Below are positions 18,484 to 24,833 of a stretch of 24,833 bases of DNA, piece by piece (positions within the stretch are counted from its first letter, which is position 1; each line of letters starts with the position of its first letter). The stretch comes from Deltaproteobacteria bacterium RIFOXYA12_FULL_61_11. GTDB lineage: Bacteria; Bdellovibrionota_F; JAHFAK01; YA12-FULL-61-11. Below the pieces are notes generated by a model. It did no database searches and was not told where the DNA came from. It saw only the letters and a program-made list of their open reading frames with translations. The stretch is taken from positions 1-24,833 of the forward strand of contig MGSU01000025.1 in the NCBI GenBank assembly GCA_001799195.1, read 5' to 3'. A program made the position numbers and the translations under genes.

Positions 18484-19140
18484 TTATTCGACGAAACCGA
18501 ACCGTTCGAGTGCCGGGATCCAGCTTTGTTCCCGAAAGGCGAACCAACGCCAGATGAGTTCGCCCTCGACGTTCTCTTGGGGTACGAAGCCCCAGATCCG
18601 GCTGTCCGCGCTGTTGTCGCGGTTGTCGCCGAGCACGAACAGCATGTTCTCGGGGACGGTGAATTCTCTGGTGGTGTCGAGGGGAGTGGGTTGGGGCAGG
18701 TGCATGATGGCATGGTTCTTTTCGCCGAGCATTTCCTCTTCGAATACCTTGCCCTGACGTTCTTCGACCCTGTGGGTTGTGAGGATTTCCCCGTTGAGAT
18801 AGACCCGCTTGTCGCGGAGCAGGACGCGGTCCCCGGGTAGGCCGACGACCCTTTTGGTGAAGATCTGCCCTTCGTCCTGGGGATATTTGAACACGATGAT
18901 GTCGCCGCGCTCGGGCAAGGCCCAACGAACAAGGGTCATCTTGGTGAAGGGTAGCTTCAGGCGGTACGCCAGCTTGTTGGCGAAAAAGCGTTCGCCCTCG
19001 CGGATGGTCGGTTGCATCGATCCTGTAGGAACGACGTAGGAGGCGAACACGGAGCTGTGGAGGCAGAGGAGCACACCGAGGAAGACGAGATCACCTTTGA
19101 GACGGCCGCTACGGAGATAGGAGACGAGTTGTGCGTACAT
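18484..19140 (-). CDS. lepB: Signal peptidase I
   Basis: Type I signal peptidase cleaves signal peptides from exported proteins at the outer face of the inner membrane. The 218-residue product has one N-terminal anchor (about 15-37) followed by box B VPTGSMQPTI with nucleophile Ser41. Box C is RGDIIVFKYP. Box D is FTKRVVGLPGD with the general-base Lys96, and box E is VLGDNRDNSADSR. All catalytic parts are present. AGGAGGA lies about 4 nt before the ATG. It is the third gene of a leftward unit after a small XRE regulator and a small membrane protein (22-nt gap), an unusual place for a housekeeping lepB, so it may be a second, regulated signal peptidase. Confidence 0.92.
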   Translation of the reverse strand: MYAQLVSYLRSGRLKGDLVFLGVLLCLHSSVFASYVVPTGSMQPTIREGERFFANKLAYRLKLPFTKMTLVRWALPERGDIIVFKYPQDEGQIFTKRVVGLPGDRVLLRDKRVYLNGEILTTHRVEERQGKVFEEEMLGEKNHAIMHLPQPTPLDTTREFTVPENMLFVLGDNRDNSADSRIWGFVPQENVEGELIWRWFAFREQSWIPALERFGFVE

Positions 19141-19162: not shown

Positions 19163-19450
19163 TTACAATTGTCGCCGGTACCACCACGTACCCACGAGGT
19201 TGCCGTAGATCAGGCTGCCGGCAATGGCGACGATGCAGTAGATCGCGTCTACCCCCGGGTCGTGCAGATAATACCCGGTTGCGCCGACCAGCATGGCCAC
19301 GGAGAGATTTTGAACAACGGTGCCGGCCTTGAGCTTGATCAGATGTTCTCGTTCGTCCTGGGGCCGTCGCCGGTCCCGCCAATCGGCAAGGAGATACAAG
19401 ATGGCCGAGGCAAAGACGAACATTCTCAGAAGCAAGGTGTGCGGGGGCAT
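19163..19450 (-). CDS. Small membrane protein, DUF2178/DUF3796-like partner of XRE regulator
   Basis: A 95-residue product with three predicted membrane segments: TLLLRMFVFASAILYLLADW, a second at about 47-64, and YCIVAIAGSLIYGNLVGTWW. A basic/acidic loop (RDRRRPQDEREHLIKLKAG) follows the first segment. Such small membrane proteins frequently follow short XRE regulators; the DUF assignment here is by resemblance only. Its ATG overlaps the upstream regulator's TGA by 1 nt and the coding end of that gene supplies GGAGGA as ribosome site, so the pair is translationally coupled. Function unknown. Confidence 0.72.
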   Translation of the reverse strand: MPPHTLLLRMFVFASAILYLLADWRDRRRPQDEREHLIKLKAGTVVQNLSVAMLVGATGYYLHDPGVDAIYCIVAIAGSLIYGNLVGTWWYRRQL

Positions 19451-19656
19451 CAGTCCTCCTCCAAGAAAAAGACCTCTTCGACCCGCACGCCGAGGCGCTG
19501 GGTTATCCGCAAGACAAGCTCCACCGAGGGGACGAAGCGCTCCTTCTCGATGGAGTTGATCGTTTGGCGGGAACAGCCCACCTCGCTCGCCAACTGTTCC
19601 TGGGTCAGGTCTCCGTTGACGACGCGGGCGATCTTGAGCTTGTTTCTCAGCTTCAT
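19450..19656 (-). CDS. Small XRE-family helix-turn-helix regulator
   Basis: A 68-residue DNA-binding protein that is nothing but a helix-turn-helix domain: KLRNKLKIARVVNGDLTQEQLASEVGCSRQTINSIEKERFVPSVELVLRITQRLGVRVEEVFFLEED. This matches the compact regulator type with the RQTINSIE recognition helix and a PS.EL..RI dimer-side helix. The start at 19656 gives the usual N-terminus; an in-frame ATG at 19683 would add nine residues. An inverted repeat around a -10 box upstream suggests autoregulation. It heads a leftward unit with the membrane protein and lepB. The first part of this gene is duplicated at the window end. Confidence 0.88.
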   Translation of the reverse strand: MKLRNKLKIARVVNGDLTQEQLASEVGCSRQTINSIEKERFVPSVELVLRITQRLGVRVEEVFFLEED

Positions 19657-19667
19657 GAGCGGAAAGT
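19553..19667 (-). repeat. 115-bp direct duplication, copy 1 (inside the intact XRE gene)
   Basis: This segment, from 11 nt upstream of the XRE start codon to codon 35, recurs at 24719-24833 in the same orientation with one difference seen (A at 19573, G at 24739). Homology begins at the GAGTTGATCG boundary; the other limit is set by the window edge, so the true repeat may be longer. Confidence 0.92.
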
Positions 19668-19681
19668 AATGTATGGCGGTC

Positions 19682-19707
19682 ATTATGTCAAGTATAAAAG
19701 ACATTAT
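19682..19707. promoter_or_regulatory. Inverted repeat around a -10 box upstream of XRE gene
   Basis: ATTATGTC (19682-19689) and GACATTAT (19700-19707) are inverted with 7 of 8 positions paired and a 10-bp spacer. On the minus strand the spacer carries TATACT (19696-19691), a 5/6 match to a -10 box that would start transcription about 28 nt before the XRE ATG. An overlapping TTGACA (19691-19686) is an alternative -35 for a start near the ATG itself. Position strongly suggests an autoregulatory operator; binding is inferred. Confidence 0.45.
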
Positions 19708-19792
19708 TGAGCTTTAATTTTTCATCTCGGTTTCCTTTCCTCCTCTCTCTCGCACGATGTTGGACTTCGGGTTGCCGATTCGCCTTCTTGAA

Positions 19793-19812
19793 CGATTGCT
19801 GATCGTCAATCG
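19793..19812. repeat. Short inverted repeat upstream of transposase-like gene
   Basis: CGATTG (19793-19798) and CAATCG (19807-19812) pair perfectly with an 8-nt loop in the 216-bp gap between the divergent XRE and transposase-like genes. It could be an operator or a fragment of a REP-like hairpin. The rest of the gap is pyrimidine-rich (CTTTCCTCCTCTCTCT) without other recognisable elements. Confidence 0.25.
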
Positions 19813-19872
19813 ATAAGTATCTTTTTTCATAGACGATCATCTATGGCGCGTGGTGTGCTTCGGGATCAAGCC

Positions 19873-20634
19873 ATGAGCCCGATCACCAACACCCGCGTCC
19901 GCCGCGACCTGCAACTCCACGACGGTGCCTTGGTCCACGCCTACTGGCAGTGTACCGACCACGCCCGGCAGTACCTCCTGCGCCACCCGAAATTCAAAGA
20001 ACTCTACCTGAATATCCTGGCTGATAAGAAAAAGTACTATGGAATCAGTCTGGTTGATGTGGCACTCATGGATAACCACTTTCATTTCTTTATCCGCATT
20101 CGCACGGTCGGGGAGTTCTCTACCTTCCTGCAGAGTGTGAATACCTCGTTCGCCAAGCTGCTCAACCACGCCATCGGCAGGACCGGTTCAGTGGTGGAGT
20201 TGCGCGTCAAGGCCCAGGTGGTGGAAGAGACGGACGAGGCTGTGCTGAGGCTGCAGGTGTACCTGGCGCTGAACCGCTGGCATAGCAAGTCCAGGACACT
20301 GCCCCAAAACTACCGCTTCAGCGGCTATCATCATTACGCGGGGATCAGGAAGGACCCTCGACTCGACACCTCAGAAGCCTGGATAAGCCTGGGCGATTCC
20401 GACGAGGACCGCGCAGCGGTATATCGGGAGATGGTCGAGGCCCAGCGCCTGGAGGGAACGGGAAAAGACGACGATCTCTTGGAACCATCGAGGCATTTTT
20501 TCGGTTCCACAGAGTTCACCCTGTCCCGCACCGAACTGCTGTTGATCGCGGTTGGCGAGCACCACCGGGCGCTGCGCCAAGCCCGGAAACTGCGCCTCAC
20601 TACTTCCGACGCCGCCGCTTCGAAAAAAGACTGA
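19873..20634 (+). CDS. REP-associated tyrosine transposase-like protein (Y1/HUH)
   Basis: A 253-residue relative of RAYT/IS200-type Y1 transposases, single-strand endonucleases that use an HUH metal site and one tyrosine. The HUH site is in VALMDNHFHFFIRI (H69, H71). The catalytic tyrosine is probably Y130 in LRLQVYLALN, the position of YIHLNP in relatives. YRFSGYHHYAG matches the downstream RAYT block. The usual W of the GxxWxxR segment is missing (GSVVELRVKAQVVE) and NP is replaced by NR, so it is divergent and may be domesticated. Start 19873 has GGGA upstream and fits the family N-terminus; ATG 19843 is possible. It is the only rightward gene in the accessory region. No flanking IS ends were seen. 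Confidence 0.8.
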   Translation: MSPITNTRVRRDLQLHDGALVHAYWQCTDHARQYLLRHPKFKELYLNILADKKKYYGISLVDVALMDNHFHFFIRIRTVGEFSTFLQSVNTSFAKLLNHAIGRTGSVVELRVKAQVVEETDEAVLRLQVYLALNRWHSKSRTLPQNYRFSGYHHYAGIRKDPRLDTSEAWISLGDSDEDRAAVYREMVEAQRLEGTGKDDDLLEPSRHFFGSTEFTLSRTELLLIAVGEHHRALRQARKLRLTTSDAAASKKD

Positions 20635-20792
20635 GCCGATGTTTTGGCCGTCTTACGAGCGCCGCGCGAAGAGCGCCGAGGTGCGCCCGCGGTTTGGATC
20701 GACACGAGAACCAGCCGTAAACATACTCTTTGGGCAGCAAGTGGGTTCCAGGCTCACGATGCCCAACATGGCAGTTCGACGACCCGAAGTCC

Positions 20793-20873
20793 TACGTGGG
20801 GCGGTGCTCTACGTGGGGCGGTGCTCACGTGGGGCGGTGCTCTACGTGGGGCGGTGCTCGTGGGGAGGTGCTA
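20793..20873. repeat. G-rich 17-bp tandem repeat, about five copies
   Basis: The unit TACGTGGGGCGGTGCTC occurs at 20793-20809, 20810-20826, 20827-20842 (lacking the first T) and 20843-20859. A degenerate partial copy follows at 20860-20873. It lies between the 3' ends of the transposase-like gene and the DUF3142 gene, and the last copy runs into the DUF3142 stop codon. Units abut directly without spacers, so this is not CRISPR, and the unit is not palindromic as REP sequences are. The remaining 20635-20792 holds nothing I recognise. Confidence 0.9.
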
Positions 20874-21593
20874 TTTCCGATTCATCAAAAATACGACGTA
20901 CCCACGGAACCAGGGGTTCCTGAGAAGTTCGGCGGGTTCGGTCCACTCGCCATGCTGGATCAGGCCAATCTTGTAAGGGCAGGTCAACCGCTTGAGTCCG
21001 GCGAGATAGCTCCGGTAGTTGGGGATCGTCGCGCTGCCCTGGTAGGTCTGAACGACCACCTCGTCGACCACCGTGGCCAGCTCGGCCAAGGCTTGAACCT
21101 CGCCATGGTTGCTCCAATCGAGCAAGCCGGTGATGCTCAGACGGTATGATCGCGGCACCTGCGCCCGTAGACGGCGAAGAAATTCGACGTAGGCCGGAAG
21201 GAGGCGCGTGCTCACGTCGTGATCGACCTGAAAACCAACCACCTCGTTGCCCGCCATGCGCCAGATACCGAGGCGTCTGACGATGCCCGTGGCTATCTCG
21301 GGGGACCACTCGAGGGTTTCGGTCCGATAGACCAGCCACACCTTGCACTCGCCCATATGGCGCACCGCCGGGCCCTGGGTCTCGACCACCGTCCGTATTC
21401 CTCGTGCTCGTCGCTCCTGGTGCACGTAGCCCTGCAACACATAGAGGTGTTCGGCTCTGCGCAGAGCGGGTTGAGGCTCGACGCCGCCCCACAGCCAGAA
21501 CGAGGTATGGGCCTCGGCATCGACCACTGTCGCGTAACATGGCAACAACGGGAACATCGCAGAAAGCAGCAAGACGGTAAGACTAAGCTGCAT
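20871..21593 (-). CDS. DUF3142 family secreted protein
   Basis: A 240-residue product with a signal peptide (QLSLTVLLLSAMFPLLPCYA). It has the DUF3142 pattern: HTSFWLWGGVEPQPALRRAEHLYVLQG, then VVGFQVDHDVSTRLLPAYVEFLRRLRAQVPRSYRLSITGLLDW, VVDEVVVQTYQGSATIPNYRSYLAGL and PYKIGLIQHGEW. This resembles a TIM-barrel glycoside-hydrolase-like fold with strand-end Asp/Glu residues, but no activity is known. Start 21593 was chosen for the signal peptide. A GGTGAG containing the upstream gene's stop lies before it, and only 5 nt separate the two genes, so they form a coupled pair. Its stop codon lies in the last copy of the tandem repeat. Confidence 0.83.
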   Translation of the reverse strand: MQLSLTVLLLSAMFPLLPCYATVVDAEAHTSFWLWGGVEPQPALRRAEHLYVLQGYVHQERRARGIRTVVETQGPAVRHMGECKVWLVYRTETLEWSPEIATGIVRRLGIWRMAGNEVVGFQVDHDVSTRLLPAYVEFLRRLRAQVPRSYRLSITGLLDWSNHGEVQALAELATVVDEVVVQTYQGSATIPNYRSYLAGLKRLTCPYKIGLIQHGEWTEPAELLRNPWFRGYVVFLMNRK

Positions 21594-21598
21594 CGATC

Positions 21599-23836
21599 TC
21601 ACCAGTAGTAGGGCAGGCTCTTCGCCCATACCGTCCGGCCGTGCTCTGTCTTCAAGGCCGTGAACCAGGCCTTGCGCACTGCTCTGGGAACGTCTCGATC
21701 GCCGCAGTGATTGATACCTGCCGGAGCATAACATTTGACCAATCGATGGAGGGCATAGGCCTGCAGGTCGGGTGGCGCGTCGCTCCTCGCCAAGACTGCC
21801 TTGTAGGCTTCACCGCGACTGAAGACCTTGCCCGGTATCGGATCGGGCCCGACGCCTAATCTGGGCACGGGCGCGCTTGACGGGCGACGCTTGTCTTCAA
21901 TTCCCCATGGTTCGAACCAGATGACGTCGTGTTCCCGTTCGTTGAAGAGCACGAAATCGCCCAGACACAGCAAACCATAGGGATTCTGGGGGTCGGCGGC
22001 GAGGATTGTGGCAATTTTCACAATAGATGGGCAGCGCAGACCATCTTTGAGGTCTTCCCCGCTCCAGGAGAAGAGCGTAACGTCCGGCGAACGGTCGCCG
22101 CACCACTTGTTTGGTGAACGTTCAGGAGGGGCGGGTAAGGTCCCGAGCAGGGCATGATCGCGCACGAAGGCCTTGTACTTGCCCTTGATCAAGTGGCCGT
22201 ACAATAACAAGAAGACCGCACGGTGTCGTTCCTGGACCGAGCTGTGCTGTGTAATCGCGATTTTGCGCAGGAGCGGGGCGGTAACTTCGAAATGGAGAAG
22301 CGCATTGCGGAGATACGGATCGACGATCGGAGAGCCGGCATCGAAGGCCTTGCCGACCTCGCCGCTCTGCTTGTAGTTCAGCGCCAAGGCCAATTGAAGG
22401 GTTTCCGATTGCAGGAGTTGAGACGATGCCTCCTTGAGAAGTTTTTCCCAGTATCTACGGGCAGCTCGGTGTTCACCGGTCGCCTCGAGGGCCAGACCGC
22501 GAAGGACGCGGCTGCTGAACGCGGTGTACCCTGTACTCCTCTGCTCGTTGCGGTTCAGCACGGTGAGGGTTTGCCCGGGGGCTCGGCGGATGAAGTAGTG
22601 GTGTGCGGCGAGCAGGTACTCGAACACTTCCTCGTGCCCGATGAAGGCCGGGCGCTGCGCTTGCAGCTCGTTTAAGCTCAATGCGTTATCGCTGTGGCGT
22701 CGCATCCGGTACAGATCGTTACATGCCAACGGGAGCCAAAACCTGAGCAGGGCGGCTTGGGCGTGCGTCGGCAGGGTGATCGGCACCTCCTCCGCGAACC
22801 TCGACACGGTAAGATTGCTCTGGGCTGAATCGAGATGCTCGAACTGCCACCGATACTCCTCGATCAAGGCCGGGTAATCTTCGGCCAGACTGTAGCAACA
22901 GCGAAAGAACCCCCGGGCGGAGGCGGCATAGCGGCCTGACGGATACCGTTGCAGATAGCCCCGGATCGCCTGCACCGCTTCGCCGAGCAGGGTTGTATCA
23001 ATCGAGGCTTTTGTCCATAGAGTATAGGAACTTCCATCGTTATTCTGTTGAATACGATTCCCTGACCATTCGGCGTGAAGCAACGCCGTGCGGCTGATCA
23101 TGTAGTGGGCCGTTTCCCGGACCCAAGGCTGCTCGCACTCTTGTAGGGCAGTGAACAGGGCCTTCGCTTCGGAATAACGCTCGGTGTAAAAGGCGAAGAC
23201 CGCCTGAAGGTAAGCGAGGAAATGGGTGCCTGCCGGGGAAGCGATGCGGCGGACGAAGGTCTTGTCGAGAATCTCAGAGGTAGATTCGCCGCGCTCGTGC
23301 AGAGTGAACAGGGTTTGCCAGAGATCTCGTCGCGTACGAATCAGCAGATCTCGTTCTTCGACCGGCACCTCCACGGCCGCCTCGAGTGCCTTCTCGAACG
23401 CGACCTGCCCGGTGTCGAGGGTGATCCAGGGCGTGCCCTCGGCCGATTCGTAACTCGGAGGATACTGCCCTCCTTCATCATCATCGGTGTCCAGACTGCG
23501 AAAATACTGCTTGAGGAAAACCCGGGCATGGAATGGTACTTGTCCGTACTGATACTCTTCCCACTCCCAAGGGTTATTGACCCAACCATCCAATTCGTCT
23601 GGCTGTATCTCGAGCTTGGCCAAGCCCTCGTCGAGCAGAAGCAAGCGCAGGTTGACCCCGGTATCGTTGTATGGCGAGAGGTACGGAACATTGCTGCAAC
23701 TGTTGACCGCGTGCTGTTCCACCGACCAAGTCGGGTGACAATAGCAATAGCTGTAGGCCGGAGGGCACCCACAGGCCCGGGCCGAAGCGGCGAAAAACCC
23801 GGTCGCGATCACCACGAGCATGAAAAGGCAACCCAT
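21599..23836 (-). CDS. Large secreted Cys-rich, TPR-like protein paired with DUF3142
   Basis: A 745-residue product I cannot name. From ATG 23836 it has a signal peptide (MGCLFMLVVIATGFFAASARA, an ARA-like cleavage site). The mature protein opens directly with a Cys-rich CxC-x6-CxC motif (CGCPPAYSYCYC) and one more Cys soon after. The rest is mostly helical with TPR-like stretches: LQAVFAFYTERYSEAKALFTALQECEQPWVRETAHYMISRTALLHAEW, AVQAIRGYLQRYPSGRYAASARGFFRC and RVLRGLALEATGEHRAARRYWEKLLKEA. No enzyme motif is visible. The frame is open to 24025 but the extra residues look random. It precedes DUF3142 by 5 nt; the 235 bp upstream hold only a weak TTGACA near 23993-23998. Confidence 0.75.
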   Translation of the reverse strand: MGCLFMLVVIATGFFAASARACGCPPAYSYCYCHPTWSVEQHAVNSCSNVPYLSPYNDTGVNLRLLLLDEGLAKLEIQPDELDGWVNNPWEWEEYQYGQVPFHARVFLKQYFRSLDTDDDEGGQYPPSYESAEGTPWITLDTGQVAFEKALEAAVEVPVEERDLLIRTRRDLWQTLFTLHERGESTSEILDKTFVRRIASPAGTHFLAYLQAVFAFYTERYSEAKALFTALQECEQPWVRETAHYMISRTALLHAEWSGNRIQQNNDGSSYTLWTKASIDTTLLGEAVQAIRGYLQRYPSGRYAASARGFFRCCYSLAEDYPALIEEYRWQFEHLDSAQSNLTVSRFAEEVPITLPTHAQAALLRFWLPLACNDLYRMRRHSDNALSLNELQAQRPAFIGHEEVFEYLLAAHHYFIRRAPGQTLTVLNRNEQRSTGYTAFSSRVLRGLALEATGEHRAARRYWEKLLKEASSQLLQSETLQLALALNYKQSGEVGKAFDAGSPIVDPYLRNALLHFEVTAPLLRKIAITQHSSVQERHRAVFLLLYGHLIKGKYKAFVRDHALLGTLPAPPERSPNKWCGDRSPDVTLFSWSGEDLKDGLRCPSIVKIATILAADPQNPYGLLCLGDFVLFNEREHDVIWFEPWGIEDKRRPSSAPVPRLGVGPDPIPGKVFSRGEAYKAVLARSDAPPDLQAYALHRLVKCYAPAGINHCGDRDVPRAVRKAWFTALKTEHGRTVWAKSLPYYW

Positions 23837-24071: not shown

Positions 24072-24677
24072 TTAGGGGAGTGCTGGCGCGGCGCAGCGAA
24101 AACCATCGTCATCGTTACGATCGGTCGGGGTATCTTCGGACCGAGCAATCACCGAGAGAGAATTGGGATAATTGTAGTTTGAACGATAGCTCCCACCCCG
24201 GAGTACACGCGCCGTCCCAGAGACTGGACCGGTAGGATAGGTCTCGGGGAAAATCGGGAAGTACTCGAAATACCAATCGAAGACCCATTCTCCGACGTAC
24301 CCGGCAAGGTTGTAGAGACCAAAGGGCGAGATACCGTTGGGGAAGGCATTGACCGGAGCGGTCTCCGGATACTCGTCGTAACAGTAGTACTGGTTGCAGT
24401 TGGCGAGGTCCGGATTGTCGTAAGAGGGGTACAACTCACCCCATGGCCAGGTTTGAAGTTCGTCTCCCCGAGCCGCATACTGCCATTGGGCTTCGGTCGG
24501 CAGTTCTCCGTTCAACCACAAACAATAGGTCCGAGCCTGTTCCCACTCCACGCAGTTGATGGGGTGGTTGTGCAGGCCGGCGACCCCATCGGTGCAGGTG
24601 CCCCCACTGTCGGGGTGAATGCCTGTTCCGGGCAGGGTGCAGAGAAGCTCAGATCGGAGCTGACCTCGACCCAGCAA
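24072..24677 (-). CDS. SUMF1/formylglycine-generating-enzyme-fold protein, 5'-truncated
   Basis: The frame encodes the C-terminal two-thirds of a SUMF1-fold domain: HPINCVEWEQARTYCLWLNGELPTEAQWQYAARG, then SPFGLYNLAGYVGEWVFDWY, RVLRGGSY and RNDDDGFRCA. True formylglycine-generating enzymes need a Cys in the segment before the final arginines; here it reads YPNSLSVIARSED, so sulfatase-activating chemistry is not expected. The N-terminal part (usual MG...E.P.H.V....F.......VT...Y) is absent. The only start in frame is a TTG at 24677, an in-frame stop lies at 24699-24701, and about 20 bp further begins DNA duplicated from the XRE gene. Most likely a remnant produced by rearrangement, but a fused or short protein cannot be excluded. 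Its stop is TAA; 235 bp follow before the next gene. Confidence 0.7.
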   Translation of the reverse strand: MLGRGQLRSELLCTLPGTGIHPDSGGTCTDGVAGLHNHPINCVEWEQARTYCLWLNGELPTEAQWQYAARGDELQTWPWGELYPSYDNPDLANCNQYYCYDEYPETAPVNAFPNGISPFGLYNLAGYVGEWVFDWYFEYFPIFPETYPTGPVSGTARVLRGGSYRSNYNYPNSLSVIARSEDTPTDRNDDDGFRCAAPALP

Positions 24678-24711
24678 CTCGCGTCTGCTGCAGGTGGATC
24701 AGAGAGTTCGT

Positions 24712-24822
24712 TCAGGCAGAGTTGATCGTTTGGCGGGAGCAGCCCACCTCGCTCGCCAACTGTTCCTGGGTCAGGTCTCCGTTGACGACGCGGGCGATCT
24801 TGAGCTTGTTTCTCAGCTTCAT
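24712..24822 (-). pseudogene. Truncated copy of the XRE regulator gene
   Basis: Starting at ATG 24822 the sequence encodes the same first 35 residues as the intact regulator at 19450-19656 (MKLRNKLKIA through QTINS). It then changes to Ala and a TGA at the junction with the SUMF1 remnant. The recognition helix is cut and the dimer-side half is lost, so a functional regulator is unlikely. The upstream promoter region lies beyond the window edge. Confidence 0.85.
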
Positions 24823-24833
24823 GAGCGGAAAGT
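24719..24833 (-). repeat. 115-bp direct duplication, copy 2 (window end)
   Basis: Near-identical to 19553-19667, same orientation, offset 5166 bp, one mismatch seen (24739). The left boundary is the junction to the SUMF1 remnant; the right boundary is cut by the window end. Confidence 0.92.

Follow-up and report, generated by a model that had tools for sequence, protein, structure and literature searches.

A truncated paralog of an XRE-type regulator and a SUMF1-type remnant at a contig end in Deltaproteobacteria bacterium RIFOXYA12_FULL_61_11

The regulator operon and its copies

The window analysed in this study is an entire contig (C25; 24,833 bases) from a draft genome of 4.64 Mb that is divided into 342 contigs and 87% complete. 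It holds a three-gene operon headed by an intact XRE-type regulator (copy 1) and, at its right end, the front of a second regulator (copy 2) that abuts what is left of a SUMF1-type gene (Table 1).

Table 1. Features of the regulator copies and their surroundings; coordinates refer to the window unless contig C123 is named.
Feature	Position	Strand	Remark
Signal peptidase I (Peptidase_S26)	18484..19140	-	third operon gene; paralog on C183
95-aa membrane-protein-like ORF	19163..19450	-	second operon gene; one paralog in the genome, on C183
Copy 1, intact XRE-type (HTH_3) regulator	19450..19656	-	68 aa from ATG (MKLRNK); profile match
Copy 1 leader and promoter region	19657..19721	-	homologous to C123:72-136 (61/65 identical)
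C-terminal two thirds of FGE-sulfatase (SUMF1-like) domain	24072..24665	-	profile 86-254 of 255; N-terminal third missing
Ig-like module remnant CLNELSDPPAADASCW	24655..24718	-	5' part missing; right-hand limit approximate
Residual 36-aa frame MKLRNKLKIARVVNGDLTQEQLASEVGCSRQTINSA, then TGA just past the junction	24712..24822	-	HTH cut inside the recognition helix
Copy 2, XRE regulator codons 1-35 and first bases of the 5' leader	24719..24833	-	runs on with the promoter at C123:83-136
ABC ATPase	C123:211-1164		opposite direction to the regulator
ABC-2 permease	C123:1161-2306		opposite direction to the regulator

A paralogous operon was found on a further contig, C183, which starts at codon 2 of its regulator and continues with paralogs of the membrane-protein-like and signal peptidase genes. 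It shares 79% and 73% DNA identity with the copy 1 operon over the aligned parts, and the presence of this full paralogous operon indicates that the regulator operon is multicopy in the genome. Both the copy 1 and the C183 regulator match the small XRE-family domain HTH_3 (PF01381) over its full length (profile positions 1-54 of 55), and regulators in other bacteria share 45-56% identity with them, several adjoining a small membrane-protein-like gene. In contrast to these HTH_3 regulators, copy 2 consists of codons 1-35 only and is without most of the recognition helix and everything beyond it, so that the complete helix-turn-helix with all helices, as expected of a functional XRE/HTH_3 regulator, is absent. 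The genome yielded neither an orphan 3' regulator part nor a third copy of the membrane-protein-like gene.

The repeat at the right end and its continuation on a second contig

Positions 24719-24833 match 19553-19667 in the same orientation at 114 of 115 bases, and this is the only direct repeat of its length in the window. At 24719 the similarity stops at a junction, with left flanks at chance level (27/100, 14/50 and 5/20 identities). Genome-wide, the repeat stretch was matched twice on C25 and once each at the beginnings of contigs C123 and C183 (87% for C183), and in no other place. The repeat of the XRE front reported in the earlier note is thus real and far above chance, and with its defined ends it has the properties of a duplicated gene fragment (114/115 in the window, 164/169 with C123 included). 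Of the limits given for it, 24719 stands as the start, while 24833 is the contig end, beyond which the repeat runs on in C123. The copy had been said to stop within codon 36; with the ATG of MKLRNKLK... as codon 1, the shared stretch extends to the second base of codon 35, which encodes Ser in both window copies nonetheless, and codon 36 is the first to differ. The sole mismatch between the two window copies, G at 24739 against A at 19573, gives TGC at codon 28 in copy 2, as in C183, and TGT in copy 1. This shared TGC marks copy 2 as a copy in its own right, rather than a fragment of copy 1 placed in the wrong position.

All 50 bp of regulator codons 7-22 are identical in three copies (19589-19638, 24755-24804 and L011:16-65). 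Such a run had a probability of about 0.0004 in a uniform-rate simulation, copy 1 and C183 being about 79% identical elsewhere, and it could reflect gene conversion, a constraint on the DNA itself, or a strongly constrained protein combined with favoured codons.

The first 82 positions of C123 (10,988 bases) are exactly those of window positions 24752-24833 in the same orientation. C123:83-136 then follows the leader and promoter of copy 1 (19668-19721) with four differences, after which similarity fades out. With C25 and C123 joined, copy 2 spans about 169 bp and is identical to copy 1 at 164 of 169 positions (97%; 5 mismatches), and it is followed on C123 by a divergent ABC-2 transporter operon. 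The earlier note had named homology into the promoter as the observation that would favour duplication over misassembly, and that homology is present on the overlapping contig. Tetranucleotide profiles of C25 and C123 correlated at r = 0.94, compared with 0.89 for two parts of C25 and 0.17-0.73 for unrelated genomes. Based on the overlap of contig ends rather than on reads, C25 and C123 are probably neighbours. The other ends tested (C25 left, C123 right and C183 right) overlapped no contig, and C183 was ruled out as the missing left neighbour of C123, given that the overlapping codons 2-6 differ.

The start of C123 precedes its first difference from copy 1 by 99 bases, and the last such difference in C25 (24739) is followed by another 94 bases before the contig ends. 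These spacings are as expected of contigs cut at a repeat near one assembly word length, itself inferred; if that length was 99, the simplest graph would predict a C25 end 5 bases farther out than the one seen, which counts against such a break. Since the window stops at a contig end within a repeat, the caution expressed earlier about an assembly join was apt. A chimeric read or local extension might have fused the repeated XRE front onto the SUMF1 contig, leaving the true neighbour elsewhere, and the position of the junction 115 bp (about a read length) from the contig end, the 87% complete, 342-contig state of the draft, and stretches of N at a different contig end, a sign of scaffolding or masking, would all suit such an artefact. 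However, a misjoin in a word graph needs a shared word, and the SUMF1 and XRE sequences share none at 24719, while copy 2 carries its own base at 24739. Rather than sequence shared across the join and an absence of copy-specific bases, as expected of a misjoin, we thus found the reverse. Additionally, C123 independently shows the XRE front with a different promoter and neighbour, which means that one more genuine copy is present whatever the status of the junction. We therefore regard a misjoin at 24719 as the less likely reading and an artefactual right end of C25 as improbable.

Between the two regulator copies, positions 19757-20800 hold a REP-associated tyrosine transposase-like (Y1_Tnp) element from a family that is matched 46 times in the genome, fully or partially, and whose members open with a conserved GTTGGACTTC...CGAATCGCCTT motif about 115 bp upstream of the ATG. 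Many contigs begin inside a copy of this family (C10, C59, C80, C104, C134, C150, C177, C289, C304, C306 and C309), which therefore appears to be one of the main reasons why the genome is fragmented. The downstream end of the element carries a short tandem repeat (20794-20876) with a 33-bp unit of 16-17 bp halves, ACGTGGGGCGGTGCTCT, and a protein matching DUF3142 is encoded at 20871-21734. The element was ruled out as a carrier of the duplicated segment, as its left end, at about 19757, lies some 35 bp from the end of the homology at 19721. Among the matches listed for its family, none is on C123 or elsewhere on C25 and none lies near copy 2, and the regulator copies do not end at mobile-element termini as the copies of a mobile cassette would.

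The SUMF1 remnant and the origin of the junction

The 201-aa frame left of the junction matches the FGE-sulfatase profile (PF03781) with an E value of 1.2e-35. A functional FGE-sulfatase/SUMF1 domain would cover profile positions 1-255 in one frame; here, the match starts at 86 and the upstream piece, CLNELSDPPAADASCW, lies directly at the junction, just before the FGE-sulfatase frame but in another frame. At six paralogous loci, motifs such as YCLKEDSAPPLTNATCW form part of an Ig-like module that lies ahead of the FGE domain, and about 94 residues more than in the remnant separate the motif from the corresponding part of that domain. The gene has thus suffered two lesions about 60 bp apart, namely the loss of everything upstream of CLNELSDPPAADASCW, and the loss of about 94 codons before and inside the FGE domain together with a frame change. 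While most paralogs have complete domains in long open frames, the remnant is truncated and its module is out of frame. Judged by its sequence, this SUMF1 gene is a pseudogene, and more broken than described when it was first noticed beside the XRE front.

The earlier note had the regulator frame continue into the SUMF1 frame. It instead reads ...QTINSA and then TGA at 24714-24712, with the SUMF1-like residues in other frames. The TGA right after codon 36 rules out an in-frame regulator-SUMF1 fusion protein. A functional half helix-turn-helix, the other product considered, is unlikely given that the 36-aa peptide ends inside the recognition helix, and this residual peptide is probably without function.

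Elsewhere in the genome, 28 matches to FGE-sulfatase were found, many of them in long proteins with Ig-like modules that carry a YCLxE...CW motif (examples are on C20, C85, C90, C206, C337 and C7). FGE-sulfatase is an expanded family in Deltaproteobacteria bacterium RIFOXYA12_FULL_61_11.

The regulator front and the SUMF1 remnant lie on the same strand with the regulator upstream, which is the arrangement that a single deletion would leave, and this would account for the truncation of both genes. We hypothesize that a paralogous regulator and its promoter came to lie divergently to the ABC-2 transporter operon of C123, and that one deletion, reaching from regulator codon 35 into the SUMF1-type gene, would have joined the front of the former to the back of the latter, with two abutting pseudogene pieces as the outcome. 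The repeat held in common with the intact copy 5.2 kb away would then have broken the short-read assembly, so that the window ends inside it. The truncating event was probably a deletion, and we favour this sequence of events as a whole, with somewhat better than even confidence. The recent duplication of the front proposed in the earlier note captured the presence of a duplicate, which is better read as a paralogous gene truncated later, given that a full operon exists on C183, that the two promoters have 4 differences in 65 positions, and that the coding mismatch agrees with C183 instead of copy 1.

Alternatively, a segment of about 169 bp, made up of the promoter and 35 codons, could have been copied from an intact regulator locus and inserted, for instance through template switching during repair, beside a SUMF1 gene that was broken before. 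The homology has a limit at each side (19553 and about 19721) and amounts to 97% identity overall, the distance of about 60 bp between the junction and the second SUMF1 breakpoint resembles patchwork repair, and a one-step insertion fits the sequence nearly as well as a deletion, since the parts that a deletion removed cannot be seen. However, a natural paralog likewise loses detectable similarity upstream of its promoter, codon 28 of copy 2 agrees with C183 and not with copy 1, and similarity that could prime a template switch was not found at the junction. We therefore regard insertion as unlikely, though not negligible.

Comparison with other genomes revealed no comparable junction among 13 distant regulator homologs with genomic context, and no XRE match in the nearest genome compared, which belongs to the same class only. 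Additionally, a 39-base piece of the regulator front had no exact match in viral contigs. Truncated gene duplicates at contig breaks of draft genomes likewise show a near-identical partial copy, no normal-length product and a contig that ends in a repeat, and nothing sets copy 2 apart from them. Most likely, the feature at the right end of the window represents ordinary gene decay at an assembly break.

The promoter copy and implications for the genome

The promoter region of copy 1 contains an imperfect dyad, CATTATGTC-N10-GACATTATT, that is a possible operator; one half site of this 9-N10-9 dyad is a perfect CATTATGTC in each copy. A duplicated promoter and operator could have been kept, placing the ABC-2 operon under an XRE regulator made elsewhere. 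Consistent with this, the homologous leader and promoter region (61/65) lies directly upstream of the divergent ABC genes that begin at C123:211, and a perfect half site persists in each copy. On the other hand, a promoter scan detected no sigma-70-like promoter in either copy, neither copy has more than a short, imperfect dyad, and the arrangement was kept in no relative compared. Such retention thus seems very unlikely, and it is still harder to credit that the promoter/operator and the first 35 codons together form a retained module that puts the divergent ABC-2 exporter under an XRE regulator encoded elsewhere.

For annotation, the right edge of the window should be taken as a contig end within a repeat, C25 and C123 can probably be joined, and the SUMF1 frame at the window edge should not be annotated as a functional enzyme. 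If the regulator did bind the promoter copy, this locus would be a modest example of how gene decay can rewire regulation.
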